From Macrocystis pyrifera (lineage: Eukaryota; Sar; Phaeophyceae; Laminariales; Laminariaceae): a stretch of 64,000 nucleotides of DNA. The DNA is taken from contig JASSKH010000031.1 in NCBI GenBank assembly GCA_031763025.1, forward strand, positions 620,001 through 684,000. Reading direction: 5' to 3'. How positions within the stretch are numbered: the stretch's first letter is position 1; every line of letters begins with the position of its first letter. Position numbers and translations under genes: made by a program. This document shows positions 6,717 to 39,100 of this stretch, one piece after another. Below the pieces are notes generated by a model, which ran no database searches, was not told where the DNA came from, and worked only from the letters and a program-made list of their open reading frames with translations.

Positions 6717-7322
6717 ATTCTATGGTTTTGCCGCGTTTTATTGTCCCGCAGATATACACGATAATGCATGCCCTGGTGTTATATACGAGAACGATGCATG
6801 AAATTTGTACGTATGACGTATGTATATCTGGTGCTACATACCAGAAAGATACGTGAAATATTTTGAAATATGTACGGCTACTGCAGATTTTTTACCATAG
6901 GCACTGGTGTTGCACAGCCTATACACCTCGGGTGGCGAAATAGATGTGAGGAGGGTGAGAAAGCCACAAAGTGGTACGATAACGTGCGGTCTAAGAGCTA
7001 GTGTATTTTGGGTGTGGCGGAGAGGTCAAAATACTTAGATAGGTTGACTGGAATCGTTACAAAACATCCGTGGCCGCACGTTCACAACCCAATATACATT
7101 GTGAATGGTCTCTCTTTGCGTTGATGGCTATTTCGTCACATTGTTTCTACAGCACTATCAAATGCTTTAGAGCCGATAGTGTTTCCGAAGCACTCGAGCG
7201 TGCTACCTAGCTTGCGATTGACTTGGTAGAGAATGCGGAGTAAGGCGCTCTCTCTGCTTGTTTTTTAGCGATACTCGAAGAGATCACAACAACCCGGTAA
7301 ACGATACCTTTACGACCGCCAG

Positions 7323-7431
7323 CCTGTCGATATCGGAGACTACGAAGACCTGCACGCCTTTCCTATCAAGACGCCGGATTATGTGCATGACTACGACGAC
7401 GACGATGCCTTTACCCGTCAGCGCCTGCAAG
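7323..7431 (+). CDS. Plus LOX copy, exon 5 equivalent
   Basis: 109 nt, phase 0 in and 1 out, acceptor cgccag, donor gtgagg. It encodes PVDIGDYEDLHAFPIKTP, an acidic stretch, then F-T-R-Q-R-L-Q; 29 of 36 residues match the minus copy. Confidence 0.92.
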
Positions 7432-8108
7432 GTGAGGATATTTCTCGTAGTTTCTAGCGTTCTCTTCAAGTCGCATGCATGCGTTGCTGGTTACATTGCG
7501 TCCCATCTGGTTTTGCTTGTCCTTGGGTGTGTTCTAACGTTTCTTCTCTGGTTTGCAGTCTAAGCGTAGAGAACAGCTCGTCGATGTTTATCCCGCTGTA
7601 CTGTGCAGAAACGTAAACACCGTAAGTTGACTACCTTCAGTTCACACGTTTCACAACCCTTTCGAGAGCATACGGTCATCAGCCACAAGAAATTAGGCAG
7701 CCGAAGCGCTGTGGAAAAGTTGCGGCATGACCAGCCGAAAGCGCCGGCGCACACTTTATCCGGAAGTACTCGAAAGATTTTTAGCATATCGCGGTGTCTC
7801 TCTCCTTTGCACATGCCTCTGCAGCTCTTCCTTTATCGCTTCGACTGTTGAATCGAACGAGCCTGTACAAGCACAAACATTGCGACTGGAAAAATGGGAG
7901 CACCAGCCTCAACGACATGTCTAATGCTAGTTTATCGTAAACTTGCATGCGGTGGAAACGTGTTTCGAAGACCAACAGGTGCCATTTGGATCAACATTCG
8001 GCTGACGGACTTGATGTGCAAGGAAGACTACTTGTGTAGTGTGCGGACTTTGCGCGTTTCGCTCACACCGTGAGGATTGCACTATTGCTTCGGTCTCATG
8101 TGTTGCAG

Positions 8109-8191
8109 GTGGTAACTGCGTGGTGATCGAGAAGTGCACAGATGCCACCAGCACGAAGCTCAATGCTTTGGACTCCGACCCCTCCTACACG
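8109..8191 (+). CDS. Plus LOX copy, exon 6 equivalent
   Basis: 83 nt, phase 1 in and 0 out, acceptor ttgcag, donor gtatgg. It encodes G-N-C-V-V-I-E-K-C and ends D-S-D-P-S-Y-T. A 10-bp minisatellite begins about 30 bp after the donor. Confidence 0.92.
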
Positions 8192-8220
8192 GTATGGCGA
8201 AAACGCAACGAAGCATGCAA

Positions 8221-8341
8221 TGGGATGCAGTGGGATGGAATGGTATGCGATGAAATGGGATACAATGGGATACAATGGGATACAATGGGATTCAATGGGA
8301 TCCAATGGGATGCAATGGATCTAATGGGATACAATGGGATG
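8221..8341 (+). repeat. 10-bp minisatellite
   Basis: About 12 units of TGGGATACAA, starting about 30 bp after the exon 6 donor of the plus LOX copy. Confidence 0.9.
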
Positions 8342-9863
8342 ACGCATGCTATGGTAGGGGTGCGTCATGTTGTTGTAGAGTTTTCTGCTGCTCTCCACCT
8401 TGAAGCTCCGTACTTTCAGAACTTCGTCAAAATTGGATTAGATAAACTATGTACGCTTGAGCCAACGGTATACGCCCGAAACGAATAGACACCCCACCTA
8501 TTGTTTTGAGTCACAATCGACTACAATAAAACTGCGAAAAAACATGTTTTCTTTTCTTTCTCACACAAGTCCCAACCGGGTACTGGGTATGTAGTCGGTT
8601 TTCATTTCCGACAAGGTGGCGAGTGTGGGCTCCGTTGTCTCTTTTTTCGTTATACTCCTGCTCGAGTCGACGAGCAATTCCATTGTCCAGGCGTACACCG
8701 ATTTGTTTGTCAACCCCTAACGACTGTACGAGGTACTGGTGGTACACACATAAGCAAAAAACATTTATAGAGTGTTGTATTGGTGAGTAAAACTAAACAA
8801 TTGACTTGGAGGTCGTATGAATTTAATAATGCTCACCTCCTAGGCGCACGATATATTGGGTAGAGTAGTTAGTATTGGTAAATCCCGTCAGTCAGAAACC
8901 GTTTGGGCCATAGAGTGCTGCATATCCCTATCGTAGGAGGTGTCCAATGCTAGCTAACTACTTCAAACAACCTTTGTGGTTTTCGTCGCGGTTGAGGCCC
9001 CTCGGGGCCTAGACTAACGGCGCAGAAATATTTCCAGGGTGCAACTGGCGATTCAAGTGTTACGGGTGTCAATATGAATCAGAACGCATGATGGACTCAA
9101 AAAACCGCAGGCATCCCCCTATGTATAACACACCATATTTGGATATGATTACCGTTTCCCCCGTGTTAGTGTGATGGAGCTCATCGGCGTCCATTGACTA
9201 TGTGATCACTGTGTGCTGTTCCAGCTTCAATCTGTAGGAGCTTTTTACTCCCATTATTCTTCTGGACAAGCCGTGTTCATAGGTGACTGTGTCGTGAACA
9301 AACTGGTATGGCTACCAACAATTTGTTTTTCTTGTCCCTGGCCTTAAGGTTGAAGGAGGGCGCGCTCTAAGGTAAGGGTACCACCTACAACTACAAACCA
9401 TTTTTCTGGGCCTCCTCACCCTCACTTGAGGGACTCGATACTGCTATCAATAGTAATTGTACTACTATTGGTATACAGTAGTACTATAAGTAAGTCACGC
9501 AGACCTAACTTTCAGAACATGAGTACTCTACCCTTAACCCTGTGAACGTTCCCTATACCTACGACATGTAAACTAATAACGTTAATGGGAGCTCGGTGCT
9601 GTGCTCAGTCTGTTCAGTTGAGGAGCTCAGATAGTCAGAGTCAGAACCATTTCCGCCAAAACTTGTAACAACACCCCTATCGTTAGCACACGTAGCACTC
9701 GAAGGGTGAGTGCCACGAGATGTGCCCAACGAGCACTGCGAGACCCAGTCAACGCCTGCACCAGTGCTCTGCCATCGAATCCTAACCCCAAATTTTCATG
9801 TAAGGAACCGTGGAGTAACAAAGACGACACCTTCCCCGGTACGCTTTATGTTTACCTTTACAG

Positions 9864-9935
9864 AGCTTGAAGGCGAAGGTCGATTCCCTCATGGTGGCAG
9901 GCAAACTTTTTGTTGTCGCCCTCGAGCTCCTCAAG
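9864..9935 (+). CDS. Plus LOX copy, exon 7 equivalent
   Basis: 72 nt, phase 0 in and out, acceptor tttacag, donor gtgagt. It encodes SLKAKVDSLMVAGKLFVVAL and then E-L-L-K. Confidence 0.92.
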
Positions 9936-10765
9936 GTGAGTCGTGACTATTGCCCTACAGCCCCGTTCTGGTCCTCTGCAAAATGTTATGGATGTAAGCC
10001 AATGACGGTGCCATACCCACCCGGTCGCGTTTCGAGTAGCGTTGTACAGTATCTTCCGGCCGGCTCGACAAACATTTGAACGCCTACCGCTACCGACGAG
10101 GCGTGCCACTATGAGAGTATTTCCAGCTAAAATACGTGTTATTGACTGGGCTCCATAACGATATATCGCTGGAATACTAGAAGATGTTTTGAAGTATTTT
10201 TCGTGCCGTGCCTAGGCTTCGAGATTGGTCATCAGGTTTTAGCACTTTTTGCATTTTATCAAGATCAGGTTCAGCTTAGGCATAGAGCTCTTATCCTATT
10301 ATCAAGTGCGTGTCGTAGCCTCACAAAAATTAGGTGCTTCCCCTACCGTGGCATGCATCCGACCCGTCCATCTCAAACATGGCGTGAAGAACTTTCTGAG
10401 AACGAAACGTAATACCGTGCGTAACTTTAGTAGTTCTTCTGAGCTCCCACCTTAAGCTCGATTTAGGTCCCGGCAGTAGCAGCCTCACTCGAAAACTGTG
10501 AGACAAAACGAACTCGTTGCATGCACGCGGTCTGGTTAGATGTGATAGACCCGCTTGTTTGCCTAGTGCATAGTAGAAGGTCCTAAACGTACAGGGTGTA
10601 TGCCGAATTGCAAAGGGAGGCATCCCTCCCATCGAACAGCCGTGGATTGAGCTACAGTAGACAGTATATTCTCCGTTGAAGCCATTTCTCCAACCCCCAC
10701 CCGCTGGCCGTCTCCGACACTCCGTTGTTCGCCCGAGTGCATTTGTTGAACTGGGCTTATTTCAG

Positions 10766-10880
10766 GACATGGAATCCTCACCTCTTTGACGGTCACGTTC
10801 CGCGATACCTGGCGCCCGGCATCGCGCTTTTTGAAGCTGTGAACGACGAATTGCTCCCAATCCAGCCCATCGGTATCCAG
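10766..10880 (+). CDS. Plus LOX copy, exon 8 equivalent, one base too long
   Basis: 115 nt between acceptor tttcag and donor gtggca; the minus copy has 114. In the phase set by exon 7 it reads D-M-E-S-S-P-L-stop. After the extra T it continues FDGHVPRYLAPGIALFEAV and ends P-I-G-I-Q in the correct phase for exon 9. This is a frameshift relative to its paralogue. Confidence 0.85.
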
Positions 10881-11433
10881 GTGGCAAACTGGTTCGCGAT
10901 ACATGTGCCACAGATGCGGCTATAACTTCTCTCTAGTTGTGTTTCTGGCTGATGGGAGGAGCGACACTGTTTGCGGTGTACCAGGGGTACATGTGCGCAA
11001 CGTAGTGTAATAGGGTACAAAATATTGTGTAGACAACGTAGTGTACATAATTTAGTGCAGCATGGTGCTAGTGAAGGTTAGACACCGCGATCAATCGACA
11101 GACTAACGTCGTTGCAGAGTTGAAGTTCCATATTTGTTTTCATGTATCGTCATTGTCCACTAGAAAGGTCAATGAGATATATGCGCTGAAGTGAGTGCGG
11201 GCATCACACCCGCATCAACAGCTCCCGCCAAGCTCCGAATGGCTCTGCGTTCGGTGCTGTACACGAAGGCCGTGACGGTAGGACTTAGTGTACTACTGGT
11301 GTATCAAGATATATGCTTTGTAAGCGACAAAACCGAAGAGTCAATGAAGTGCTTGGTCCTTGTCCCGGCGGTAAACAGCACTCATTCTAGAAACCCACGA
11401 CGGTCTCGCGTGCGGGCGTCTGATGTTTGGCAG

Positions 11434-11528
11434 CTGGGCCAAGGGAAGACAGCGACGCCCATCTTCACACCTGAAGACGGTTTCAACTGGAAGATCGCCA
11501 AGGCCTGCTTTGAGGCTTCTGACTTCAT
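11434..11528 (+). CDS. Plus LOX copy, exon 9 equivalent
   Basis: 95 nt, phase 0 in and 2 out, acceptor ttggcag, donor gtaagt. It encodes LGQGKTATPIFTPEDGFNWK, then I-A-K-A-C-F-E-A-S-D-F. Confidence 0.93.
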
Positions 11529-12879
11529 GTAAGTGGCGATTAGTATAGGTCATTTTCTTGCCCCTCATCCGTATTGTCTTTTCTCTGTACAAATTGCTAA
11601 AGTAGCTACATCAGGGCTTGACGCGTTGTGGGAAGTGGTGTATGGCGCACCTGTTGAGAATCAATCTGAGAAAAGCGGAAATCGTCACTCGTGTCGCCGT
11701 TGTTGCGTCTTCTCGCCTATCGGTTGCCTGACACTTCAAATTTGGCAGCCAACCACTCCCCTTCGAGGCTATATGATGCGCACGCAACTGGCTATGCTGT
11801 CCTTGGAGACCATACGAGGTGGATGTGATCGGCTACGCTGATGGTCCCGGGAACGCTGGATAACGCGCACGCCATTGACCCTCACCTCGCGAAACTCCAA
11901 GAATCCGTCGGGTATGACTCGGAACAACGTCGGAAATAATGTCAATTCTCTTCGGCTCCCACATATAGAGTTGATGACTTGAGCTGGTGTGGATGAATTG
12001 ATTTTGACAAAGAGGGAGACGATATACAGCGTGGACTAACCATATGCGTGTTGTTCAGTCGAACTCGGCGTTGATGCCGGTATTCAGCATGAATAGCAGC
12101 CTACCCCACACCGTCAGAGACAGAGAAACTCAATATCGCCCTTGAAGGGGTGCCGCCTTATTTTCGAGGCTCCTCGCTCACATAAGGAGCTCCATATCTC
12201 ACCCGAAACATGGCTTCGAAGAACCTTGTTCGCATAGACCAGTCAAGATGTATATACACCACACTATATGGCCCAAAACAAGTATGCTAGTTCATAATAG
12301 TTTCATCATACCTATAACCGGTATACTGCTGCATCTTAATAGTTATCATACCTGTAACCGATGTACTACTACTTGCTCGCTTGAAGAGCTCAACCAGTCA
12401 GAATAGACTGTCCTAAAACGTGCAACCTCTTACGTGGGATGAATCAAAAGATTGTAGTTGCGTCGCTCAAACGAGGTGATTCATGGTTGGCGGCGCGAAA
12501 CTAAATTATGGATACATTGTTTTCGCCATGTTGAGTCCCGCGTGCCAAGAATGACCTCAACGCCAAACGAGCTTACACGCTGCAAGCAGCGTCAGGCCAG
12601 TCACGGCAGTACACTGTAGTACACTGCTGTAGTACACTGTAGTACATGTTCCGGTCACTAGTTTGGTGAACGTGGCGGCGCCACTCCCGTGTCGTGCCCT
12701 GCTCAGAGCTAGATTTGGAGCCTGTAGGTACCGAAATGAGCGTCTTCCTTGGAATGCCGCGAGAACTGTTTGCTGTCGGGGTGACCCTACTGTGGTGATA
12801 GCTGCTGGTGGTGTTGCTGGCATGCTCACGTCACACCATGAGCTTCATAATTTCTCTCTGTGATATTTCAACCTATCAG

Positions 12880-13036
12880 CATTCACGAGGTGGTATCACA
12901 CCTGGGCAACACTCACCTGGTACTGGAGGGGCCCATGGTCGCCATGCGCCGCCAGCTGCCTAAGGAACACCCAATACACACGTTGCTCGAGCCGCACGAT
13001 GAAGGAACCGCCTTCATCAACTGGGGCGCCCAGGAG
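12880..13036 (+). CDS. Plus LOX copy, exon 10 equivalent (iron-binding His pair)
   Basis: 157 nt, phase 2 in and 0 out, acceptor tatcag, donor gtaagc. It encodes IHEVVSHLGNTHLVLEGPMV and ends I-N-W-G-A-Q-E; 46 of 52 residues match the minus copy, including both His ligands and the Coffa-position Ala. Confidence 0.95.
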
Positions 13037-13705
13037 GTAAGCATTCACAAAACATCGATGCCATAGCCAAACATTGCCATGCCGCATGAGTCACATAAGG
13101 AGTCACCTGGTACGTCAATCGAGTCGTCTGGATACGGAAAGATAATCCAGCCCGATGATCGCTTTCTGAGAGGGATGTGCAGTCCATTCCCGCCGACGTC
13201 GTCGTTCCTATCTTTTGCTTTTCTCGCCTGTGTTTAGACGCGCGGACCATCGGAATATTCCATATTCTACGCACTAATGCGCTACTGTAGTAACATGAAG
13301 TGACGCATTGAAAGTAAACGCTAGAACTGGTCTAGGTCCAGAAAGGGTGGATTTGACGTAGCATCAGCGTGTTTGTACCGGGGGGGTGGGGTGTTGTCGA
13401 TGCCCCTTCGCATTTGGACTTTCAGGCTTTAGGTTAGGTCGACGGCTGTCAGGCGTGCAAGGGACGAGGTGTGCTGACCGGTTAGAGAAAGAGTCACGTT
13501 TAACATATGGCAATTTTAAGTATTCTAGAGCCATGTCGACATGCTAGCTATCACGCAATAGTGAGAAAAGTAATGTTTTTTCCGTTGAATAGTTTTCGTT
13601 TTTTGTGCTATTCTTTCCTGGCACAAATTGTTCGGCGCAACGTGCAATATTTGGCTTTGAAATGCATGGCAACGTTTCGCTGTGTGTGTTTGTTATTTGG
13701 TTCAG

Positions 13706-13786
13706 CTGTTACTACCGAAGGACGGCGGGGTAGACAGGCTTCAGGGCAACAGGGTCGAACAGTCTTGGACCTTGGTACTGGAGCAG
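13706..13786 (+). CDS. Plus LOX copy, exon 11 equivalent
   Basis: 81 nt, phase 0 in and out, acceptor ggttcag, donor gtgcgc. It encodes LLLPKDGGVDRLQGNRVEQS, then W-T-L-V-L-E-Q. Confidence 0.9.
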
Positions 13787-14341
13787 GTGCGCAAAACCAT
13801 CCTGGTAGGAACGATACTGTAGACACACAATCAAGAATAGGTACGGTGTGCACAGTTTCGTCGCCAGTCGGCAGAGAGTCTCTGGTATGACGTCAATATT
13901 GCAACGTCTAACAGCAGCGGCATGTTGTACTTTTATCGCTCACGCGTGTAGTCTACAAGTTGATGATGGCTAGAGGGTGTGGATGGGAGACATGTTCTAA
14001 TCACTGGCTTGAGCTCCAGTGAATTAATTCGCTGTATATGTTTCGTATTTTATAGGCGGTATGCTGATGGCGAATGGGGACAAGATACAATACATTAAAT
14101 ACCAGGTACATTGTCGTAACCCGGTACAAAGACGGAAGTTAGGGGTAGGGACGGAAAAAAAATATGTACAATATTACATGACTGGAGCTAAATTTTGCTA
14201 GTGCAAGAGGGGCACGATACAGGGGTAGGGCTGTGTGGAATACTTTATTTAACGATGGGATGAATTCATGATTTTTGTTTTGGAAGGCGTCACAATTATG
14301 ATACCGAGTTGTAACGTATCCCTTGGCTTGTGCCCGACCAG

Positions 14342-14494
14342 ACCCTGGGACGCATATCCGAAGATTTCTCGCCAGAGGTGGACTTCAAGACTCGCCGGAT
14401 GACGAAAGAGGACTTCCCGGGTCGGTACCCCTACCGCGACAGCGGCATGATGTACTGGGAGGCAACTCACACCTGGGTCAAGGACTACCTTGAC
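14342..14494 (+). CDS. Plus LOX copy, exon 12 equivalent
   Basis: 153 nt, phase 0 in and out, acceptor gaccag, donor gtgagc. It contains Y-P-Y-R-D-S-G-M-M-Y-W-E-A and W-V-K-D-Y-L. Confidence 0.94.
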
Positions 14495-14690
14495 GTGAGC
14501 CTTGGATGGACTACAGTACATATTACAGTCCTGGTTCCTCTACAGGACCGTTATGCGCCAGCCAACAATACGAGCACTGTAGCGGCGAACGGCACTACTT
14601 CGCACAACTACCACGCTACTGAATCCCATCTCTGCCAACCGATTCCACAGACACGACAGAGGGCAACCAACACTATAGAGGCGCTACTAA

Positions 14691-14794
14691 TATAGGGGAA
14701 CATAGTAATCAGGACCAAATATGCCTAGTAAACATACTGGAACCAATAGGTTTTTGTGTATACGATGGGTTCTGATTACTATTGTCTCCCGTAA
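14691..14794. mobile_element. MITE family A, diverged subfamily
   Basis: It carries GTAATCAGGACCAAATAT and an inverted GGTTCTGATTAC in place of the usual GTAAATAGGACC, a variant related to the element at 34454. Confidence 0.65.
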
Positions 14795-15604
14795 TAGTGT
14801 AAAGGTGTAAGCTTGCTCGTGATGGGGTGATGGCCTCCGTCGTACACTACACGTTCGGGAAGCTCTCTTCAGTCCTGCCGGTATGTGAAGAACGTTGTTG
14901 CAGAGGTGATGTTGCTCGTTTAGTACGCCTACATTCGTCGCTGTCCGTTCGTTGATGTCCATGTCGGCATGCGTGTCTTCTCCCTTGGGTCCGAGCGTTG
15001 GGTAGATATGAATGTATACGCATCGTCATGCGCTCAGCTGATAATCTCCGGGCTAGCAGTTCAGCAACACGCCATGTGCGGTGTAATCCAACGCTGGGTC
15101 TGCGCCGAGGCCGAATGCAGTAGACGTGCTCCCCCCTAAAAAATTCGTGAGGGTTCCAGTCTGAAACTCCTCCGACTCTGTCCAGTGCAGTAGAGCTGTG
15201 TGGTTGCACCATGCATGGCACGAAGTACGACTCTGCTGAAGAAAGATCTGGTACTGCAGGTATTACGCACCCAATTTCCTCAGTGTTCTATAATATCGTA
15301 CACTAATAGTTCAGAGCACGGAGTTCGTATGCGGCGCAGCTACTTGTTCGGATTTTGTCTGGGCGTTTGATACTGTCTCTTAAACGCAAAGAATTTGTGA
15401 AGTCATACCACTGTGCTGCAATTTAAGGCTACGATAAAATAGTTTCACTCGGATGATACCCCTTGCCTCCGTTTATACTTGGTATCTTTATGTTTTCAGT
15501 TCGCACTTTGAACGCACCATCCCTGTCCAGTTGTGCACCACTCTTTGTGCTGTGTTACGGCACGGCAGAGCTTTAGTCGGAATACTGACAAAGCCATAAT
15601 ATTA

Positions 15605-15745
15605 GGAACTGTGTGTGTTCTTCACATGAAACCGTTCTCTCTGCCCGTCGGCATCCAGCACAACCAGTGTCCGTGCCGATTCTTCAATCCTAGAGCAGAG
15701 AGCGATACAAGTTATGTGGTCACAAAACTACGCCACAGAGACACT
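15605..15745 (+). repeat. Dispersed repeat B copy
   Basis: It contains TTCTTCACATGAAACCGTTC and CACAACCAGTGTCCGTGCCG; the longest copy. Confidence 0.75.
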
Positions 15746-16377
15746 ACATTGTTACGTATGCAGTATCTACCAGGTGCCTGATGCCGTCTGTTTCTACAGT
15801 ATGTTTGGTCGTAGACGTCGTAGGCCATGGGATTGCTCATCGGGTTGGGTGAAAAAGTGGCTTGAATCCGTGTTTTGGGTGACATACCAATAGTATAGAG
15901 CTCCTCGCCTGAGAGCCTCAGAAGGCAAACCCAGGTGCACTCCTATCGTAGCATGCGCCCCAGACCTATCTGCCATGTAGGATAGGATGGGGACGCCCAC
16001 TGCGACATCTCTGCCCTCCGTGCATATTTAAATACCCGGGTATATCGTTATTGATCCCTGAACTGCAGTACTACGAGAGCGAACACTGATGTCTACTATA
16101 ATGCGTGAGGCATAAGGTCAGTACCAGCATTCTTGTTACGCAGCTACGTCAGGCCTAGTAGCTCGGTAGAGCTAACACAATCGCTACTAACCCCACTATT
16201 TGCACGTACCTCTTCGTATGCGCAACAATCTCAACCCAAGCCCAAAAACAGAAATTTTCCTGTGCTCCTTTAGTTGGGTGACTCGTCAGCCACTTCTTCG
16301 CAGGGAAACCCCCACCCATAACGTTCCTTAGTTCGTTCTATTTCCCGCGCTTGTGACTCGCTTGGTCAACTGAACAG

Positions 16378-16425
16378 CTATACTACAAGGACGACGGCGA
16401 CATCTCGGACGACTACGAACTTCAG
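16378..16425 (+). CDS. Plus LOX copy, exon 13 equivalent (16 codons)
   Basis: 48 nt, phase 0 in and out, acceptor gaacag, donor gtgtgg. It encodes LYYKDDGDISDDYELQ. Confidence 0.92.
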
Positions 16426-16599
16426 GTGTGGAGAGAATCGTGGTTTGGTTGGTGATGAATCGTGAATGCATGGACGGGCCGTGTTTAGCTATGTTGGTGT
16501 GTTTGCTCTGTCAACACCTCGGAACGTTCCTAGTGTCCACTATTATTACCTGGAACCTACATCCTACGTCGCATAACTCACGACCTACAGTAGATCCTA

Positions 16600-16700
16600 G
16601 GCTGACGTTACGAGATAAAAACTCGCAGGTAGATTCTGGATGCAGTAGAACACATCCAACCCAGGAAATCTGCCCTAGATCGTGCAGATGTTTCATACGG
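16600..16700. repeat. GATC-rich dispersed repeat J copy
   Basis: Family marked by GATCCAACCCAGGAAACATG and short GATC palindromes such as CTACAGTAGATC. Here it reads ACATCCAACCCAGGAAATCT. Confidence 0.55.
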
Positions 16701-17003
16701 TTCTCGCGCGGTAAGATGAAATATCCCCTACAAATTACTGCAGGAATATCTCTGCCCTGGAGATATGCTGTAGATCTTCAAGGGAAGACCGATGATCTGC
16801 CCGAGGTATAAATGTTTGCTGTCTAGGTTTACTGGTTTTACGAGATACCTGGTGCCGGTAGGTTTTGGTCCCAGTTCTGTGCTACATCAGCACCATGCTC
16901 TGCACCGAGTCTACATATGACATGCCGTCGCACAACATGAATCTCATGTGTTACGCGATGCCATATCGGCACCCTCGGAATCCGTGGCGAAATCACTGCT
17001 CAG

Positions 17004-17093
17004 GCCTTCGTGAGCGAGATGATCCACCTCGGAAAGATGAAGTGGCTGGAGGAGTTGGGCATCTGCAAGGACAAGAAATCCCTCCTCGCCAAG
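17004..17093 (+). CDS. Plus LOX copy, exon 14 equivalent
   Basis: 90 nt, phase 0 in and out, acceptor gctcag, donor gtacgg. It encodes AFVSEMIHLGKMKWLEELG and ends K-S-L-L-A-K. No repeated donor array was seen behind this copy, unlike its minus-strand paralogue. Confidence 0.88.
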
Positions 17094-17649
17094 GTACGGC
17101 GCGGCAATATTTGAGGCAACTAAAGGAGAGCACCTGACATGATGAAAAGTGGAGTAGCTCACAAATTCATCCTTGTCTATGGTGTTTTTTGTTTCAAGAG
17201 CAAGGCATTCAAAACTGAACGGAGTGTGAGGTATAATAACAGATAGCCGGGACCCCCCCTTTCCCCCCCCGGTACATGATATGGGCGTACTTATACTCTT
17301 GAGGGGACACTGAACAATGTGCCACACCTTTTCGGTGTTTTTTTTTTTTTTTTTTCCTTCCCATGCATTAGCTTCGCCCTTCGTTTCTCTCTCCATCCTA
17401 GCGCATAGCTCAGATTCGGGGTCACGTAGTAGGTGCATGGGGTTGCCTTTCGGGTGAGGACCTTCCGTACTACTGCCCTCTGTCCCCCTTACCGCTGCTG
17501 CTCCCGCGACGTGCGCGAAGGTGCCCTGGGCAGTAGCGCGGCCGGTCCTAACCTGAGCTATAGTCACAACAAAGGTTGGTCACTGACCCCTTGCCCCGCC
17601 CCTCCCCGCCGCTGCTCCTTTTCTTGTTTTACTTCTCGCTTGCCTGCAG

Positions 17650-17775
17650 GTGCTGGCAAGTCTGATTTATTCGGCCAGCACTCTACACGCTGCCGTCAAC
17701 TTCCCCCAGAAGACCATAATGTCGTTCGCCCCGAACACCCCGGGTTCGATTTATGCCGCTCCACCCACCGACAAG
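17650..17775 (+). CDS. Plus LOX copy, exon 15 equivalent (His/Asn iron ligands)
   Basis: 126 nt, phase 0 in and out, acceptor ctgcag, donor gtcaga. It encodes VLASLIYSASTLHAAVNFPQ, keeping the His and Asn ligands, then A-P-N-T-P-G and P-P-T-D-K. Confidence 0.95.
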
Positions 17776-18592
17776 GTCAGAGAGATAGTGTTAACATCGT
17801 GTCCAAATATAATGTCAACTTTCAACACATATCTTCGGACGAGTGGTGTTTCCCAAGCCCGTGTTAGGATGATATACCGAGTTTCTCGATTAAGGAGTCT
17901 CTGATAATTGTAGGTGTACCCCCACCGTCGATTGCGTTATGAGATCTCCCGTCATCTCTCCTCTACACGCTCCGAACCCCGTGTAGCCGCTGGCTCCGTA
18001 GTATGGAGGGCAGAGAGTGTACAGGAGAGCAGACGTAAGCGAGCAAACCAAACCACTGGGTGGAGAGATATTCAACGGGTCAGGAGTGCGGCACACGGCA
18101 TGCAGGATCATTGACCATCTACAGTAGTTGCTACCTCGAAATTTTACGGCGATGGAAATTCCATGGCGCAGCACCTTACGACGTCCATCGGCACCGTCTC
18201 GTGCTATGAAGACGGATAGTAATGCCATGAAGGTCCATGGCATTGCCCTGCAGGACTGCGGCTGTTCGTGAAAACCCATGAACGCCTAAGAGATTCCGTG
18301 GCGGTGGTGACATGACGACAGTGCCATGAAAGCCCATGGGACGCCATGGGTACGGCCCCCGACGCGCCATGAAAAGGTCAAACAACATGCACTTCTCTCT
18401 ACCACGCACCCAACAACCGACTCTCGACATGCGCGCTACCGTAGGGTTGCACCGATTTTTTTCACTTGAATATATCATACGAGATCTATATACTCACCCA
18501 ACACCTATATTTTGAGAAAAGCTTCCGTACCTTTATAAAACTGCACCCCAATGAGCATTTCAAGAACCTATTCATAGGAATATTACCAGGGA

Positions 18593-18689
18593 CCATAGTA
18601 AATAGGACCTACGGTACACGCAAAAACCTATATATATTCCTCTATTTTTACTAATAATGTTTGGTCCTATTTACTATGGTCCCCCGTCA
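18593..18689. mobile_element. MITE family A copy
   Basis: 97 bp, reverse orientation of the core, with TA at both ends. It lies in the intron between exons 15 and 16 of the plus LOX copy. Confidence 0.85.
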
Positions 18690-18934
18690 TAATAGTAGGT
18701 GTGTCATGAGTAATACTGTAAAACAGCTATTAATAGTATTGTCGGCACTCCAACAATATTGGGTTAAGAAGCCTATTCATTGTCAGTCAGAAATATGCTG
18801 GCCAAAGTTCCGAACAGTACCCCTCTTGTAGCGCGGGTCGTAATAAAAACGTGCTCGTATGAGTTAATCCCTTCAGGCATCAATGCCTTAAGGACTGCAC
18901 TCCCGTTGGGGGGACGCAACACTTGAAGTTAGAC

Positions 18935-19115
18935 TCAGTTTCAGGCTTGTGCAATAAGGCGCGAGTCGACGAGGGAAAAAAGGATTGAACCATCCTGGCG
19001 ATGTAAAAGCAAGGCACTATGCGCAGTTGGGAAAGGGAACGAGGGGCTGCTGTGTGGACCCAGATCTGAGGCACGACTATGTAAAGGAGGGAGAGAGAAC
19101 AAAAGGGAGAAGATA
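18935..19115 (+). repeat. Dispersed repeat C copy
   Basis: Full-length: CGCGAGTCGACGAGGGAA, then CAGATCTGAGGCACGACTAT and a GA-rich tail. Plus LOX intron between exons 15 and 16. Confidence 0.7.
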
Positions 19116-19910
19116 ACAAATGAAACAAAGAAAGCCAAAATGTAACAGTGCCCTGGTAAACGAGTCAACGCCGGCATACCGTTCCATGGGCTAGGTATCC
19201 AACGAGGACTTGTTTTGTTGTACGCATCGAGTCGGAGGACCCTGCGCAGCCGCTCAGTTTTGAAGCACTGTCGCGGGGAGGGAAAGGTTTCACCCCTCGC
19301 ACAGATGACCGATTCTCACTTCATGCATGATATAAATCTTTCAAGGCAGACATGTTGCCGATCTTGTATGGTCGGATCATGGTGCCGGGCGGGATCCATA
19401 CAGCCCGCATGGTGTAGAGCGTGTTGCCTGGGTTGGATGCAGGCCCTGTATGATAACTCAGAACGGAAACTGAGGAACTATGTGCTTGATCTGCCTGAGG
19501 CACAACCCCGATGGTAGCAGAGCTCGTCATATAAACATGTCTCGCGGTGCATGGGATGATGGATGATACGGATGTACCTACTGCAGTAATGTTAAGAATA
19601 CTTCATGAGGCTCCTCACTTCATCGCGCTCTCGACTCCTCTAAAAGCTCAGGAAAATGAAAGAGCAGTCCAATAAACAGTGACATGGCGTATTCTAGGGT
19701 ATATATCGTAATATAGCGTAAACCACGAAAAGTATTCCATTGATAATGCATGCCTTATTGAAGTATTTCTTAGTTGAGAGCCCTATTAATAGTCAGTCAG
19801 AATGATTTTGGCCCGACATATGCTACCCTTATGGTAGGTCAGGTCTCTGTCTGTCACTCGGACTATCGCATCGAATATCGCCTTCAAGTTTCAGCTGTTT
19901 TCTGGCAAAA

Positions 19911-20002
19911 GGGGGGGATGTTCCTTTAGGATCGCTTACCAGGGGGGGATGTTCGTTCAGGATCGCTTACAAGGGGGGGATGTTCCTTGAGGATCGCTTA
20001 TC
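19911..20002 (+). repeat. 31-bp tandem repeat, three units
   Basis: Units begin with seven Gs at 19911, 19942 and 19973, each followed by ATGTTCSTTNAGGATCGCTTA. Confidence 0.9.
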
Positions 20003-20137
20003 GATCGGGACCGAGTATATGGCAGTGCTGTGTATTGCTGACCTGTGCAGGTCCCTGATGAACAGTAGCGCGCAGGGCTCCCTGTCCAAAAGACTAGATG
20101 TCACACAGTTATGTTGCCCAACGTCTCCTGATCGCAG

Positions 20138-20241
20138 AAGGAGAGGACGTTCGAAGACTACCTGGCTTACCTGCCCCCCATCGAGATCGCGACGACCCAG
20201 GTCATTCTCGGCACTCTTCTCGGATCCATCTACCACACCAG
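20138..20241 (+). CDS. Plus LOX copy, exon 16 equivalent
   Basis: 104 nt, phase 0 in and 2 out, acceptor tcgcag, donor gtgcta. It encodes KERTFEDYLAYLPPIEIATT and ends I-Y-H-T-R. A 31-bp tandem repeat ends about 140 bp upstream. Confidence 0.92.
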
Positions 20242-20286
20242 GTGCTAATGCGTAAGCCACGTTACCTCATCACGTAATACCACGTG

Positions 20287-20875
20287 TACGTGATACAAAC
20301 AACTGAACCCCCCAAGTGCAACCCCCCCCCCTCCCACTGGAAGAAGATAAAAAAACAATCTTGTTTCACCTAATACATGGAAGAACATAAGGAGGTCCAA
20401 AAAAGTTGGATGTGCCTCTACTAGGAGTACGAACGGTACTCCGTTTCGCAAGGGGTACGTGATCAGTGAACAGAGGACTAAGGCAAGCAACAAAGGAGTA
20501 GCAGCAAGAAACGATCGATATCGAGGAGATAGATGGTGGCTACAGGCGACGAGACAGGAACGGATCAGATGAGCAAAACGTTTTATGTTCTATGCTGAAA
20601 CAACACCATGGGCGCCAAAACGTTGGAGGTGTCTCCATCTGGAGTAAGAACTGTGCTCCGTCTCGAAAGGAATGCGTGGCCCATGGTGAACTAACTAAAA
20701 TAAACAAAATGTGAGTACCCCCTCCTCGACCCCGCTTCCCCTCTCCGGTCTCTTCTTGGTGCAAGCAATATCTGCCTGATTGGTGAATACACGTCGTGCT
20801 CCAACCCGGCATTGTAGGGATGCGAGCGTCTATGGGTATATGACTACGGCCATGCACGACATGAGTACACCCCCC
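20287..20875 (+). repeat. Composite dispersed repeat, modules E-E-D
   Basis: Two diverged E modules (about 20380-20500 and 20600-20720) contain CTCCGTYTCGMAAGG and an ACTAAG/ACTAAC motif. The D module (20747-20875) has GGTGCAAGCAATATCTGCCT, CCCGGCATTGTAGGGATGCG and ends in a C run. Plus LOX intron between exons 16 and 17. Confidence 0.7.
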
Positions 20876-21240
20876 CCCCCCCCTTCTCCCACCGATGCTG
20901 ATGATGTGTTCTCCATTGTAATATTGGCAGTGCACTGCACCGCATTAAGGACCCGCCGTATCGGTCCCTCGTTGAACACAGTGTAGAAAACCGACGTAAC
21001 CAAAACCGCTCATGAGGACAAATATCGTGTAGTGTGGTACATACGACAATCTTTTTCTTGAAGTGCGACGGTGGCACTCAGCGCTGGGTAGCACGGACTA
21101 GCAGCCACGTGGCAGCTAAATCGGTATCGGAAACGATGTTGTCGTCGGCTCTGCCAAAGACACCAACCAAGCCTTGAAAAAATGTAATCGCTCGTCCCAC
21201 TACTTTGTTACCGTCCGTGTTATGTCGCGTGCGAGAACAG

Positions 21241-21345
21241 GCTGGGCGACTACGAGGCGCACCACTTCAGTGACAAGCGCGTGCAGAAGCCGCTCGCCAA
21301 GTTCCAGGAGGCTATTGAGGCGATCGAGACCGACATGGTCGACGA
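21241..21345 (+). CDS. Plus LOX copy, exon 17 equivalent
   Basis: 105 nt, phase 2 in and out, acceptor gaacag, donor gtgagt. It encodes LGDYEAHHFSDKRVQKPLAK and ends M-V-D-E. It is the first unit of a tandem array that repeats its 3' end and donor region. Confidence 0.92.
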
Positions 21346-21860
21346 GTGAGTGATTTGTTGAAACATCAACGTCGGACAGATCTTGGTCTAGATCACGACC
21401 TTGATCATGCACTGGATCGTCTAGCTCCTGGTAGCAGGGGATCGAGGAGGTCAAGGCCCACACAGTCGACGAATGAGTTTTATTGAGCCATGAAAATCAG
21501 GCAACTCATGACCTACATCACGACCTAGATCATTTAAATCATGCCGCTCGTTTTTTATTGTATCAGGGCATTTAGGCGCTCCCGGGGCGACTTGGTTGAC
21601 AAGTTATTTTAGTGAAACAATATCATCGGGCAGTTTTATGGCCTAGATCTCGACCTGGATCATCTCGATAATCTGATTCCTAGTAGTAGGATATCGAGGC
21701 AATCGAGGCGGACATGGTGAATCAGTGAGAAAATATTGAGACATGAACATCGAGCAGATTATGCCCTAAATCACGCCCTGGAGCATGCCGTAGATAAACT
21801 ATTAATAGCCCCACAGTACTAGGATCGAGACCGACACGGTCGGCCAGTAGGTTTTCATTC
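21311..21860 (+). repeat. Tandem array of exon 17 end, donor site and intron start (plus LOX copy)
   Basis: Five units with exon-end equivalents at 21345 (real), 21472, 21602, 21724 and 21846, about 122-130 bp apart. Each has an exon-like part (ATCGAG...GACATGGTCGACGA or a decayed form), a donor-like site (gtgagt, atgagt, gttatt, gtgaga, gtaggt) and an intron-like part with TTGARRCAT, GCAG-T and GATCAYGMCCT blocks. The first unit is the working exon end. Confidence 0.85.
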
Positions 21861-22149
21861 AACCGAAACGTTCGTGAACTGCGATAATGTGAAGTGCGCT
21901 TGGCTTTTAGTTCGCCAATCGGCGAACGTTGTGCAGAGGCGAACGGGTAGAGAGAGTACATGACACCATTAACATTACTAGCCAAAACAGTTGTCCGGGC
22001 CTGACATGTTTCTTATAATGGACGCGTTCTACGATTACACCGATTTTAGTATGTATCGCCTCCCGATTGTTTGTGTTCCTGAACGCATTACATCCGTCGG
22101 ACAGGTCATTCTTCAAGTCTTTTTTTTACGGCCCTAACTTGCCGTTATG

Positions 22150-22290
22150 ATATGTTGTACAGGATCTGTACATTACAGATCTAACCCAGGAAAGATGTCG
22201 TAGATCATGAAGTTCATACGACCCCCAGCCGGCAACATGAGCTGGATCGAACAGATAGATCAGGAATGCCTCTGCCCGCAAAGATCTAGA
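22150..22290. repeat. GATC-rich dispersed repeat J copy
   Basis: It contains CAGGATCTGTACATTACAGA, AACCCAGGAAAGATG and GCCGGCAACATGAGCT. Last intron of the plus LOX copy. Confidence 0.65.
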
Positions 22291-22620
22291 TCAAATATGA
22301 AGTGAGAATCGAGGATCTGTCCTCCGTGTGAAATCTTTGCCTGGCCTTGTTGGTGTCCGTTTTCCTAGTATTAGTGATATTGGTAGGATAGTGGCTGTCC
22401 TGTGATGTACTAGCATGTTGTGAGACACAATATTGATGGTAAAGGATACCAATTGTTTGGGAGTCTGGTTGGCGTAAGCACACCGTCATCGAGCCCGCGA
22501 ATTGTTTTAGAGCGGATTGATGTTGCAGTGTACTGCACCGCAGGCAATTGTCAAGCGCCTTTTCAACCGCGTCTATGCGAGTAGAAGGAGCCGATCAATA
22601 CTTCAAAGTATATTTCACTA

Positions 22621-22726
22621 TTACAGGGGTCCATAGTTACTAGGACCTATGGTTTACATAAAAACCTATATATTTATCGATTTTTTACTAACAATATTTG
22701 GTCCTATTTACTATGGTCCCCCGTAG
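22621..22726. mobile_element. MITE family A copy
   Basis: TA-flanked, in the last intron of the plus LOX copy, about 250 bp before exon 18. Right terminus ends CCGTAG. Confidence 0.88.
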
Positions 22727-22975
22727 TACGAGAACTTAGGTCCCACACTACTTCCAAGTATCTTGTTCGCCAAAACATGCGCGTGGTAAAAGCGTTAACC
22801 GGTCAACACACGGTTTAAGTTCCAAAACCGATATCGCCCGTGCAGAAGGCGAATAATCTCCCTCCCTCAACGTCATCGGATCCACAGTGTGAGAGTAAAC
22901 CCGCATATTTCCCTCTCAAATCGTGTTTATCTTCCCACTCACCAAGCATTCGGTCTTTTCCCTGACCCTGTGCAG

Positions 22976-23090
22976 AAACGCCTACGTGGTGGCCTCCTGG
23001 AGGACGAGAGGCAAGGACAAGAAAGACGCTGCCAACTTCGGCTACACCACGCTCCTCCCCGACAACATCCCCCAGTCCATCAACAAATAG
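22976..23090 (+). CDS. Plus LOX copy, exon 18 equivalent, terminal Ile replaced by Lys
   Basis: 115 nt with stop, acceptor gtgcag. It encodes NAYVVASWRTRGKDKKDAA and ends P-D-N-I-P-Q-S-I-N-K-stop. The minus copy ends S-I-N-I. The bases after the stop, TCGG-TGCCCTC, still match the minus copy. Confidence 0.94.
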
Positions 23091-33050: not shown

Positions 33051-33165
33051 CTATATGTTGATGGACTGAGGGACGTTGTCGGGGAGAAGCGTAGAGTAGG
33101 CGAAGTTGGCCGCGTCTTTCTTGTCCTTGCCCCTCTTCCTCCATGCAGCCACCACGTAGGCGTTT
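33051..33165 (-). CDS. Minus LOX exon 18 (C-terminus with iron-ligand Ile)
   Basis: Residues 635-672 and stop, phase 2 in, acceptor cgcacag. It ends L-L-P-D-N-V-P-Q-S-I-N-I-stop. The C-terminal Ile672 supplies the last iron ligand in this family, so this copy has the complete set. Confidence 0.95.
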
Positions 33166-36100
33166 CTGTGCGGGGTCAGGTGGGAAAGGTAATTGCTTTC
33201 GTAAGTACGCAAGCTTGACAGCACAGTGATCTACTGTAAATAATCTAGATGGTAGACGTGCCCGATGACAACATTCTACCAATAGCTCACTATTACAATG
33301 GTCGATCTCCAGCGGATGGTCTGGATGGTGATACCGTAGATGATCTACCTCATGGTCAGCCCGATGAATTTTTCTCAAATAGAACCTCACTCGTCGATAC
33401 TCCTCTACCATGGCGGTTTTAGGTACCCGATGGTCCACCATCAAGAATTGTAGCAGTAGATGATCTACAAGATCGACGTAGATCGTGGTAGATGATGACA
33501 TAGAGTATATCCTGATATGTCCCGTGAACAAAACAGTGACAACTCACTCGTCGGCCCAGGTCGGTCACGATGCCCTCGATGGTCCGCTACGTACTAGGAG
33601 CTACAATAAGGCATGTAGATGCCAGATGATCTAGATGATCTAGATGATCTGGATGATCTACGGTAGATCGTGATATTTCCGACTGTATGCTAGATATTCA
33701 TATGTTTGAATACAAACTCACTCATCGATCATCTCGACCTCGATCGCCTCAATAGCCTCCTGGTACTTCGCGAGCGGCTCCTGCACGCGCTTGTCGCTGA
33801 ACTGGTGGGTGTCGTAATCGCCCAGCCTTTTTTCGCGCGCAACGCAGCGCAGGACGGCGACAAAGAGGCGGAAAATAAGTACATATCCATATTGATACAA
33901 GCTTTGGTTAACTTATCTGGGGCAGGTGCTGATGAGAACAACAATGTTAAGAGAGCCGTGCTACGGTTTCAAGAGGAGGGTACTGCTGCATGTTTTTCAA
34001 AAATTCCCAGTGGCGATGAAAAGCATGCATGCTTCCTACGGTACGTGTAGCGGTACTGCTGTTGCCCCCGAGGTTTGTCAGAGGCTGGGGCTCCTTCCTC
34101 ACTTGAGGGGTTCAGCTTTAACAACGTTAACAAACGTTGTACATACGTGTGCTGAACCCGACGATAGAGGTCTTTGACGATGCCATGATGCAATAATGCA
34201 ATGGTGCCATGGTTGGGTAGGTCCTTCTCCGATTGAGAAACCCCTACATATGGATGGGAAAATGTCGGCCAGAGAGGGTTTGCTGCCCCTGTCGCTGTGG
34301 CGGCATGCGTCTGGCGGGGGGGGGGGGGTCGCTTCTCGATTGAAGGCCTATATTCCCGCTGTATTTGCTTTCGATGCGTATTGCGTATAATGATTTGTAA
34401 ATCCCTCTTTACTGTACATCGGGTTAGTCTACTCTAGCTACCAACTCTAGCTATTACGGGGGGGCATACGTGGTAATCAAAACTCGTTATGGACCCAAAA
34501 ATTATCTGTCCCTCTATGCTTACAGGCCATATTTGCTTCTGATTACTACTATTACTATGTCCCAACGTAATAGTGCAGTAATAGTGCACTAACAGTGCCG
34601 TTATAGTAATAGTGCAGTAATAGTGCCGTAATAGCGCAGTAATAGCGCAGTAATAGCGCAGTAATAGTGCACTTCGTTGCGTGAGGAATTTTTTTTTGCG
34701 GATTTTGTTTTTCGCGTTTTCGCATTATTAATAGTTGCAAGGGGTAGTTTGCGGAGGGAGATGTTCCTGTTGCTCGAATCAAGGCTGCAACTACACAGTT
34801 GGCGTGCTTCCCTACCGAACTAATAACCAGCCGTTAAGTCATTACGACGGAGGGGGGCATGCATGGCCGTAGTCGTATGGCCGTAGACCCTCGCATCCCG
34901 ACAATGCCGGAACGGAGCACGTCGCGTTTCCGCCGACCAGGAAAGCATTGCTTGCACCAGGCGCGAAGCGCCGTGAGGTGTCCGGCGAATCGCATGAAGG
35001 GTGAGCTGCATCCGGCTAAGAACCGCTTGTGACGTAGGTTTGTGTATGGATAACAGTACCAAATGAATTTATGAGGGGAGGGAGGGCACAGTAATCATAA
35101 TGTAACAACAGTAATGAGAACCGAAGGTGGCGTGTAAATAGAGGATACATACATGCTTTTGGGTACATCGTGAGTTCGGATTACTATTTATTGCTAATAC
35201 GGGTGACCATAGTATATAGGACGAAATATTGTTATTACGGGGGTACATAGTTAATAGGACATAAAAACCTACATATTTACCTATTTTAACTAACAAAATT
35301 TGGTCCCGTTAACTATGGACCCCCGCAATAGTAAAAATAGGTAAATATGTAAGTTTTGGTGTATACCGTAGGTCCTATTTGCTATGACCCCTTGTAATAT
35401 GTAATACTACCTTGTATGTATTAGTATGTATTATTATGTATTATTGTACTGCTTATGCATTAATATGTACTCCTATGTAATACTATGTAATACTACTGTA
35501 TGTATTACGATGTATTTCTATATATTACTTTGTATTACTATGTTTTCCATGTCTATAAATTACTATACCCTCCGCAGTAGGAGCAAGTCAACTTCACAGC
35601 CCCGTGTATAATTGCAGTCGCATACATACGAGGTGCGAGGTTTGGGTGCATCCGCCCCAAACAGGTTGGAGCGCTAAGGCGCCCCAGAGCCCAGAGCCAA
35701 TAAACGCCTGACAGGTAAGGAAGGCTGAGAGGTTGACTGGACGCGTCGGCTGCTCCGGCCAAGGAAGCCAAAGTATCTGACTTGTGGAGTCTTCATTACT
35801 GCAACAACACATTTCGACCCGCAAGCGAACGCGCCAGTCATAAGTCAGCTGTAAAAATTACAGCGGACAATTACCGCACGCGAGAGAGTGCATTACAACA
35901 CCCATACGTGTAGTAAGTAGTAGACAACGGGAGAGCAATACTAGCGGCAAGCGATAGTAGCGGTAAGCAACAGTAGCCGTAAGCGATAGTAGCGGTAAGC
36001 AATAGTAGCGGTAAGCGATAGTAGCAGTAAGCGATAGTAGCAGTAAGCGATAGTAGCGGTAAGCGACAGTGGCGGTAAGCGAGAGTGCTCAGAACTCACG

Positions 36101-39100
36101 ATGGGCCCGAAGAAGCATGACTTCCTCTACAGTATTATTTCCAACCATATTTCATCCCAATCACTACGACACTATTACGAGGGACCATAGTAAATCGGAC
36201 TAAATATTGTTAGTAGAAATAGACAAGGATATAGGTTTTTGTGTATGCCGTAGGTCCCATTTACTATGGTCCCCCGTAATATTATCAGCGTATCCGCTCT
36301 GACCCAAAATATAAGGACCGTTTAGACTGAATAATTTTATGCTAACGAATCCTATATTTCGGGTCAGAGTGGTGTATATATCATATGCTCCAGATCACTA
36401 CCTTACTGGCAGATGTGTTAATACTGCTGTTATTACTAATTGTGTTAATATTGTCAATACTATTAATAATACTATTATTACTAATAGTGTTAATAATGTC
36501 AATACTATTAATAATACTATTATTACTAATAGTGTTGATAATGTGAATACTGCTGACACTGTTAATACCACCAATAATATTGATACTCTTAGTAGCGATA
36601 CTCCCGCTCGTGTACCAGGTACCGATTTAAGACACGATGTGCCTGTACTTACTTGGTGTGGATCACGGCTCCGAGCAGGGTGGCGAGGATGACCTGGCTA
36701 GTCGCGATCTCCAGAGGAGGCAGGTAGTTCAGGTAGTCTTTAAAAGTCCTCGTCGCCTGGAAGAGAGAGGTCGTCAAAAGCGACACAATGCATCACGGTG
36801 CGCGGGGGGGGGGGGGGGGGTTGTTTGACCAATGAAATGAACGTATATTTTTCAGGCGTTTTCGTAGCAGACCTCCAGCAGAATAGGTCAATGGTTGATG
36901 GGGTTGTTTGACCAATGGTGATATCACCCTTGTGGACCTGCAGTCCCTTTACATCAGTTGGGGGGACGAACTACTATGAATTTGAGTGGTGTGTCCCCAA
37001 AAGTGATCTAAAGAGACTGCACTCCTAAAATGGCCAAATGTTACTTTTTCTGAAAGGCTAGTTTTTGGTTGAAAAAGAGCAGTGCTTTAGTCTATGCAGC
37101 ATCAGAATAATGCAGCTGCTATAATCTCGCTCTACCATGTCATAGCACAGCATACCCCTATTCCGACCATTCCGACTATTCGGACTATTCCGACATCCCT
37201 CTGACCTTGTCGGTGGGGGGGACGGCGTAGACGGAACCGGGGGTGTTCGGGACGTAGGACACGATGGGCTTCTGGGGGAAGTTGACGGCTGCGTGGAGAG
37301 CGCTGGCCGTGTAGATCATACTGGACAGCACCTGCAATAAAAGAAACAAACAAAAAAAAACAAGGCCCAGCCCCAGAAGCAGCAGAAGAAGCAGCAGCAA
37401 GAACAGCAGCAGTGCGGGGGGGGGGGGGGGGGTAAGCGAGTCAGTGATCGAAATTCGTTGTGCGAAAAACAGTGAACCTGATGCTTTGGTTCAAGAGTGT
37501 GTGCAGTAGGCTACCGGTGATCGCTCGAGTTGTAGCCCATATACCGTAAAGAGTGAATGAAGAACACACACAGGGGTACGTCGTTTTTCAGCTCGGTTCT
37601 TCTACAACCATGGTGTTTTCCAAACGGTCTGGTCGAGAGCCTTCTGAATTCATGACGTTCGACTTCAGCACCGATGTCATTGTCGAGAAAACCATCAATA
37701 GCGCTGAAAAACGATCGCATCCTACCTACCCTGTATAAACGCATCGCTGTTTGTGCTAAACCTACGGCCACGGCGTGATCGAGGGGGTGACATAAAAGCG
37801 ATGTCCGACAGGCGGGCGGCACGGCCGCAACATGATCCTAGTCGTACCATACTGCTGGACGCTCACGTCACCAAAGAGGCGTTATCGATGGTGTTGTCAT
37901 CATCTCGGGGTCTCAAACGGGTTATATGGGTATTAAATGTTAACCTTGTGTCGTACCTTTGCGATGAAGGCCTTGTCAACTTTGACGATCTCAAGAATAG
38001 TTTTTTTAATTAAAACCTTTCTGTACCATTGTCATGAGTGCATTGATCACTTGCCCATGCTTGGGAGAGCCGTAACCTAAACCAAGCAACTGTACACCTT
38101 TGCGAAGAAGGCCTTGCCAACATTTGTTGATGCTTGGGGGAATGATTTAGTCAACAACGAAGGGTACCTTGATGATGAAGGCCTCAAGAGCATTGCCGAT
38201 GCTTGGAGCTATGCGTAAATCGCGAATTTGCATATACCTTTGCGATGAAGGCCTTCTTGTCCTTCGAGCTGCTGAACTCCTTCATCCACGTCATCTGTCC
38301 GGTGGTGGCGAGCTCGTCGACGAACGCCTGTACATAGAAAGGAACAACGGAACGAGAAGCGTAAGTAGAACCGACGTGATCGTGCTTCCTTCAGATGAGC
38401 GAGGGTTTTGAGGCAGAATTCGATTATCGTCTCTTTTAAGCCACGTCATCTTTTTTTCCCGACATTTGAGCAGCTCGTCGTCAACGAAGGCCTGTGAGGT
38501 GGGATTGTCGCAGAGTTCAGACAGCACGGCACGGCACGGCATCGTATCGTTTCCATCAAAACTCTGGAGCAATATCCCAGGCACCACCCCAACCGTCATA
38601 GCTACAGAACTCTTTTTTTTTAGTTTGTTCACCATCACGTTTTCATTTTTCCTTCTGCCTTGGACAAGCAAGCCCTGGTCACAGATGTCTTCCCTTCCCA
38701 CCCCGGCATGTCAGATGTGCCCTATTTTTTTTTATCGCGCTGAGGGTTTATTCGGCATTCCCACTCCTCGTCGAATTTTTCATCGACTTTCTTGCTATCT
38801 CTCATGTCACGCAGTGGTGGAACTCGCTATTACGGGGGTCCATAGTTAATAGGACCTATGGCATACATAAAAAACTATACATTTACCTATTTTTACCAAC
38901 AATATTTGGTCCTATTTACTATGGTCCCCCGTAATACTGCCCTACCTATCAAGAGGATCACATCATCACTAATCAAAAACGTAGAGGGGTGACCCAACTG
39001 CCAACCACAGAGTCCATTTCGTCGTGAAGTCTGTGAGAATAATGATCACGTGCATGTCTCGCGGAGAGACGCGCAGGAGGCGGATGGCAACTTGTGACCG

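Follow-up and report, generated by a model that had tools for sequence, protein, structure and literature searches.

Two inverted lipoxygenase genes

The window, by which we mean the whole 64 kb stretch of DNA analysed here, is eukaryotic and its genes are intron-rich. It contains two inverted lipoxygenase (LOX) genes, one on each strand. Their exons, conserved between the strands, extend from 5058 to 23087 on the plus strand and from 57490 to 33054 on the minus strand. The C-terminal parts of the two genes were assembled from exons 8-16 of the 16 found and begin a few residues upstream of the exon 8 acceptor. Both match the Pfam family PF00305 well above the curated cut-off of 23.6 bits (131.9 and 153.4 bits), identifying the host genes as lipoxygenases, and they are 74% identical to each other. 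Exons are numbered 1 to 16 by conserved block only, and N-terminal exons may be missing. Accordingly, exon 15 here is exon 17 of an earlier first-pass annotation of this DNA, and we take exon 12 of the minus gene to be its exon 14.

The two proteins end differently: the minus LOX terminates in QSINI (33051-33056) and the plus LOX in QSINK (23085-23090). In lipoxygenases the last residue, usually isoleucine, is a ligand of the iron, and the plus enzyme may therefore be altered. A search for LOX relatives in viral contigs found 43 stretches that fit a pattern, of which 0 were confirmed, and a tRNA search of the window found none.

Table 1. Coordinates of the lipoxygenase exons and repeat units discussed in the text
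Feature	Position	Strand	Evidence
LOX exon 15, phase-2 end, donor GTGAGT	21241..21345	+	paralogue alignment, translation; PF00305
Unit p1: real exon end (21308-21345) and intron nt 1-92	21308..21437	+	unit alignment
Unit p2: exon-like 21438-21472, donor decayed to ATGAGT	21438..21566	+	unit alignment, donor scoring
Unit p3: exon-like 21567-21602, donor GTTATT	21567..21689	+	unit alignment, donor scoring
Unit p4: exon-like 21690-21724, donor GTGAGA, without GATC	21690..21822	+	unit alignment, GATC masking
Unit p5: exon-like stub alone (21/24 match), donor GTAGGT, intron part unrelated	21823..21846	+	unit alignment
Last coding exon of plus LOX, including stop codon	22976..23090	+	predicted splice partner of donor 21345
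Unit m1: end of minus exon 15, real donor at 33721	33722..33759	-	unit alignment
Unit m2: exon-like copy with GTGAGT	33548..33586	-	profile match 33580-33453, E 4.7e-5
Unit m3: exon-like copy with GTGAGG	33391..33426	-	profile match 33397-33341, E 5.1e-4
Array behind minus exon 12	37954..38255	-	exon-end copies start at 38255 (real), 38185, 38115, 38044, 37974
Partial duplicate of the minus exon 12 start	38436..38495	-	located 155-164 nt before the exon, starting at an ACAG acceptor

A tandem array across the donor of plus exon 15

From the donor of exon 15 on, the plus gene carries an array (21308-21846) of four full head-to-tail units and a fifth, exon-only stub (Table 1). The units straddle the donor at 21345/21346 and consist of 35-38 nt of exon-like sequence (24 nt in the last copy) followed by 87-98 nt of intron-like sequence. 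The last exon-like bases are 21345, 21472, 21602, 21724 and 21846. The resulting donor-to-donor spacing of 127, 130, 122 and 122 bp bears out the unit length of 122-130 bp given in the first-pass annotation. With several head-to-tail copies at regular spacing, p1-p4 form a minisatellite-type tandem array. At its default score, Tandem Repeats Finder (TRF) reports no row at 21300-21870; the copies are about 70% alike.

Comparison with shuffled sequence confirms that exon end, donor and intron start are repeated. The last 45 nt of exon 15 together with 60 nt of intron align to the rest of their own intron with a score of 87, compared to 32 for the best of 60 shuffles (z 22), and the exon end alone reaches z 10. 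The six pairs among p1-p4 give raw z values of 11-25. The fivefold repetition originally proposed holds for four full units; the fifth retains an exon-like stub only, which pairs with p1 and p2 (z 7.3 and 5.6) and hardly with p3 and p4 (0.6 and 1.8), while its intron part aligns no better than shuffled sequence (z -0.6). Shuffles were first-order Markov in most comparisons and single-base for unit identities and for the unit comparisons of the exon 12 array described below; 60 were used in the donor and acceptor scans and 25 for whole-intron alignments.

An alternative set out beforehand was that the likeness comes only from GATC motifs shared across the window. GATC is not enriched there (255 observed versus 250 expected). 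With GATC and 2 nt on each side masked, the pairs among p1-p4 still give z values of 2.6-12, and five of the six, all except p2-p3, exceed all 200 shuffles. Because five masked pairs stand above all their shuffles and p4 is free of the motif, we reject GATC as the source of the likeness and the array stands.

The array was also said to decay increasingly along its length, which the identities do not follow. The exon parts of p2, p3, p4 and p5 are 0.71, 0.74, 0.74 and 0.88 identical to the real exon end, and the intron parts of p2, p3 and p4 are 0.67, 0.75 and 0.71 identical to that of p1. The exon-like and intron-like parts of p2-p4 thus decay alike, the pattern that unselected DNA would show.

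A related array in the minus paralogue

The exon 15 array had been tied to one paralogue, but intron 15 of the minus LOX contains a related array (33759-33391). When a profile of p1-p4 was run against the 64 kb, the only places above the inclusion threshold were its own four units and three places in minus intron 15: those of m2 and m3 and a third match at 33756-33601 (E 8e-13), which takes in the real exon end. A profile of the intron part alone found nothing above threshold outside the plus array and missed the minus units. In the donor scan minus exon 15 reaches z 4.3, with the exon part alone at z -0.1.

Intron 15 shows likeness between the paralogues over nucleotides 7-106 (z 5.7), compared to at most 1.6 for the other 14 introns. 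Ranked against 2,506 other places in the window for likeness to the plus intron parts, m1 comes 1st, m3 4th and m2 12th, although m2 falls to 524th if nt 7-50 only are used. The sequence upstream of p2 resembles that upstream of m2 with z 4.8 (p1-m2, z -1.1), in a test where pairs without expected kinship reach z 3.3. Alignment of the two copies of intron 15 over their whole length reaches a score of 74, while none of 25 shuffles exceeds 38. Introns 14 (120), 12 (65) and 5 (58) also clear their shuffles, and introns 10, 9 and 4 do so narrowly; for intron 14 the likeness is a dispersed repeat.

Based on these similarities, the two intron-15 arrays probably go back to one old event that predates the LOX duplication. 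We hold this ancestral reading less firmly because whole-intron likeness is not unique to intron 15 and because of the noise level of the junction test. The likeness kept at the start of intron 15 alone hints at some constraint.

Folding of seven units gave z values of -2.1 to +0.9, with only p1 and m1 near -2 and no consistent fold; the folded stretches of m1 and m2 begin inside the exon-like part. No Rfam family matched the window at gathering scores. With unremarkable fold scores and no Rfam match, we reject structured RNA units.

A second exon-end array behind minus exon 12

The first-pass annotation also described an array behind what is here minus exon 12, and this array is real (z 12; exon part alone, z 8.3). 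It had been considered the same structural event as the array behind exon 15. However, it has a 70-bp period and keeps mainly the exon end: its exon-end copies are spaced by 70, 70, 71 and 70 bp and mismatch at 0, 4, 2, 6 and 0 of 21 nt. Weak likeness persists among the intron parts of u2-u4 (z 2.7-3.8) but not in pairs with u5. Gapped alignments of u2, u3 and u5 give a likeness of 0.74 for the exon-end copies and of 0.53 for the intron parts (shuffled, 0.51); with u4, these values are 0.67 and 0.54 (shuffled, 0.50). The difference in keeping between exon end and intron part is significant in one of six pairs (Fisher P 0.002). Matches to the exon end with six mismatches occur at three places besides the array and the paralogue, so the u4 copy rests on its spacing and its intron part. 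Neither the donor scan nor the unit comparison found an exon-12 array in the plus gene.

Copied donors and their possible use in splicing

Donors were scored with a matrix built from the 30 LOX donors, so that the real donors themselves contribute to it. That the plus units copy the donor proved partly right: three of the four copied donors are still GT and one is AT, and all four score at background, with values of 0.7-1.7 (67th-76th percentile of 2,643 intronic GTs) compared to 6.8 (98th percentile) for the true donor. In minus intron 15, m2 and m3 score 6.8 and 6.5 compared to 3.6 for the true donor. Behind minus exon 12, u2, u3, u4 and u5 score 5.3, 6.4, 1.2 and 9.9 compared to 6.7. Overall, three of the six copied donors in the minus gene outscore the true one. 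Use of a downstream donor would lead to an immediate stop, in GAG TGA after exon 15 and in TGA at the second copy after exon 12. Judged by these motif scores, the plus array looks dead as a source of splice sites, and the minus arrays might still offer alternative donors.

We also read the six intron-15 copies as cassettes. Used in this way, p2 would cause a frameshift and p4, m2 and m3 would introduce stop codons; p3 and p5 would keep the frame with no stop but have weak donors. On this basis we do not class the copies as duplicated cassette exons.

Arrays and exon-intron borders

A recurrent process targeting exon-intron borders had been suggested. The donor scan found copies downstream of 3 of 30 donors (plus exon 15, minus exon 12 and, more weakly, minus exon 15), and the acceptor scan found an upstream copy of the exon start at 1 of 30 acceptors (minus exon 12). 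Two of the 30 acceptors are approximate, because in both genes the exon 10 acceptor was set where the conserved block begins, a position lacking an AG. Several candidates were rejected. At minus exon 2 the signal of the exon start (z 5.4 for the exon only) comes down to a 20-nt match, and the donors of plus and minus exon 4 (z 7.7; exon part alone, 1.4 and 1.2) are followed by intron-only short-unit arrays. Inspection by eye showed no copied exon sequence in two arrays in minus-gene introns (about 39575-40037 and 55961-56561).

A sensitive scan found 47 array clusters covering 14.6% of the window. Three of 30 donors (plus 4, plus 15 and minus 12) lie inside arrays, compared to 4.3 expected by circular shift, which speaks against the suggested process, and 1.1 expected if exons are avoided (P 0.09). 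Six donors (plus 4, minus 4, minus 2, plus 15, minus 15 and minus 12) lie within 50 nt of an array, compared to 2.4 expected with exons avoided (P 0.026), but at three of them the array consists of short units and is confined to the intron, and two probably reflect a single event. One acceptor lies inside an array (expected 4.3 by shifting and 1.1 with exons avoided), and 2 lie within 50 nt in the exon-avoiding test (1 in the circular-shift test), compared to 2.5 expected. In the exon-avoiding test arrays may cover up to 45 nt of exon, and array extents are partly rounded.

When short-unit arrays are counted as well, an array comes within 50 nt of the donor in 7 of 30 introns and equally close to the acceptor in 2 of 30; the count draws on TRF rows, with overlapping rows merged and single-base runs excluded, and on seven scan extents rather than all 47 clusters. 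The donor-side lean is weak, comes from two genes and probably includes one event twice. Such a lean would also result from selection against duplicated acceptors: a donor copy comes after the original and can be passed over, whereas an acceptor copy is placed upstream and is encountered before the original.

Arrays are also found at or near the donor of intron 4 in both genes, a 10-mer at 8191-8354 (plus) and a 19-mer at 51573-51676 (minus), and appear to be independent. The sister genes are asymmetric in their overall content, as by the TRF-based count 13 of the 15 minus-gene introns contain tandem arrays, compared to 4 of 15 in the plus gene, the plus figure omitting three clusters near 6761, 12261 and 20381, one of which falls in an intron already counted.

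Origin of the intron 15 arrays

We favour, with a probability of roughly 0.65, a tandem duplication across the 5' splice site of LOX intron 15 that probably preceded the duplication of the gene, has since decayed and is tolerated. While the LOX gene was still single, a minisatellite-type DNA duplication, by slippage or unequal exchange, would have copied some 35-38 nt from the end of the exon together with the donor and about 90 nt of intron. Once there were two genes, the array would have grown and decayed separately in each. The first donor is presumably the one used, and splicing from it to the real acceptor would remove the whole array. As the original donor comes first in the transcript, the array could be tolerated. 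The likeness retained at the start of intron 15 and the strong copied donors of m2 and m3 speak against this reading. Intron 15 is present in both paralogues, and thus no intron gain is suggested. The array is probably an old, mostly harmless DNA duplication, ordinary in its mechanism.

The main competitor, which we regard as appreciably less probable, is that the two intron-15 arrays were born independently after the LOX duplication at a border prone to duplication. The plus units are closer to each other than to the minus units (mean intron-part score of 56.3 within plus units and 24.5-30.5 between plus and minus), the branching of a tree of the seven units is not resolved, and the intron-part profile misses the minus units; another array behind minus exon 12 likewise fits a process that can recur. 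Against independent births stand the likeness at the start of the intron and at the p2/m2 junction and the high ranks of m1 and m3. A general process targeting exon-intron borders seems improbable. The copies at three donors and one acceptor, and the excess of donors near arrays when exons are avoided, speak for it, but plain shifting gives no excess, acceptors show none by either test, and the plus and minus exon 15 arrays are probably not independent of each other.

Two further readings give the copies a function. The arrays could be maintained as a store of decoy or alternative 5' splice sites and so reduce or regulate productive splicing of LOX, which we consider unlikely. This would accord with the minus copied donors that outscore the true one (u3 comes close to it), with the better keeping of exon-end copies than of intron parts behind minus exon 12, and with the likeness that intron 15 alone retains at its start. 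Against it, all four plus copied donors have decayed, five of the six pair tests behind minus exon 12 are not significant, and the intron-15 arrays do not keep their exon parts better. Slightly more doubtful still is the corollary that tandem decoy donors, strong in the minus gene and decayed in the plus gene, are maintained and make the paralogues differ in productive splicing. Least credible to us is that the exon-like pieces are present or past alternative cassette (mini)exons. An AG precedes each plus copy, most copied plus donors retain GT, a pyrimidine-rich stretch ending in CAG precedes p3, two copies would be read in frame without a stop, and a 15-nt piece following AG is in frame in u2, u3 and u5 behind minus exon 12; yet the frameshift of p2, the stops in p4, m2 and m3 and the weak donors of p3 and p5 leave little room for such exons.

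Comparison with known repeats at splice borders

Tandem duplications across splice borders are known from a potato RdRp gene (PMC4974935) and from human paralogues (PMC2812944). Like the LOX array, the potato duplication crosses a splice border and carries splice signals; in potato, two near-identical copies lie across an acceptor and a new intron is spliced, whereas the LOX array crosses the donor, has four to five copies about 70% alike and gives no sign of a new intron. In human segmental-duplication genes (PMC2812944), internal tandem repeats straddle exon-intron boundaries of paralogues as in LOX. These are recent and vary in number between near-identical paralogues, whereas the LOX array has decayed and is probably of old origin.

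Direct repeats near splice sites (PMC11782384) also lie at intron borders, but they are 4-30 bp long and were found by comparing the surroundings of both borders, whereas the LOX units are 120-bp units at the donor end only. Introners (PMC9860276) resemble the LOX array in being repeated intron-like sequence with splice signals. Introners insert into many genes, whereas the LOX unit occurs in the window only in its own array and the paralogous intron. We reject an introner family, as the intron-part profile had no match above threshold outside the plus array in the 64 kb searched. A limited search of titles and abstract starts in the open-licence literature found no description of a multi-copy donor-spanning array common to paralogues.

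Found in one and the same intron of two diverged paralogues, such a multi-copy array offers a natural experiment on spliceosomal choice among tandem donors and on the survival time of a duplicated splice border. Exon-finding programs may mistake the copies for exons.

Dispersed repeats in the window

A partly palindromic element of about 110 bp, which we take to be MITE-like, occurs at about 18 places in the window and in both orientations, for example at 22619-22728, 38828-38936, 39297-39405 and 61006-61114. The copy at 39297-39405 ends about 11 nt before minus exon 11 and seems to supply its 3' splice region. A 17-mer of this element matched 2 viral stretches, and BLAST found no similarity between one of them and the window. 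A second dispersed repeat, some 100-150 bp long, is found at 20755-20869, 34858-35003, 49815-49917 and 53526-53683, and at least two of its copies adjoin a long C run.
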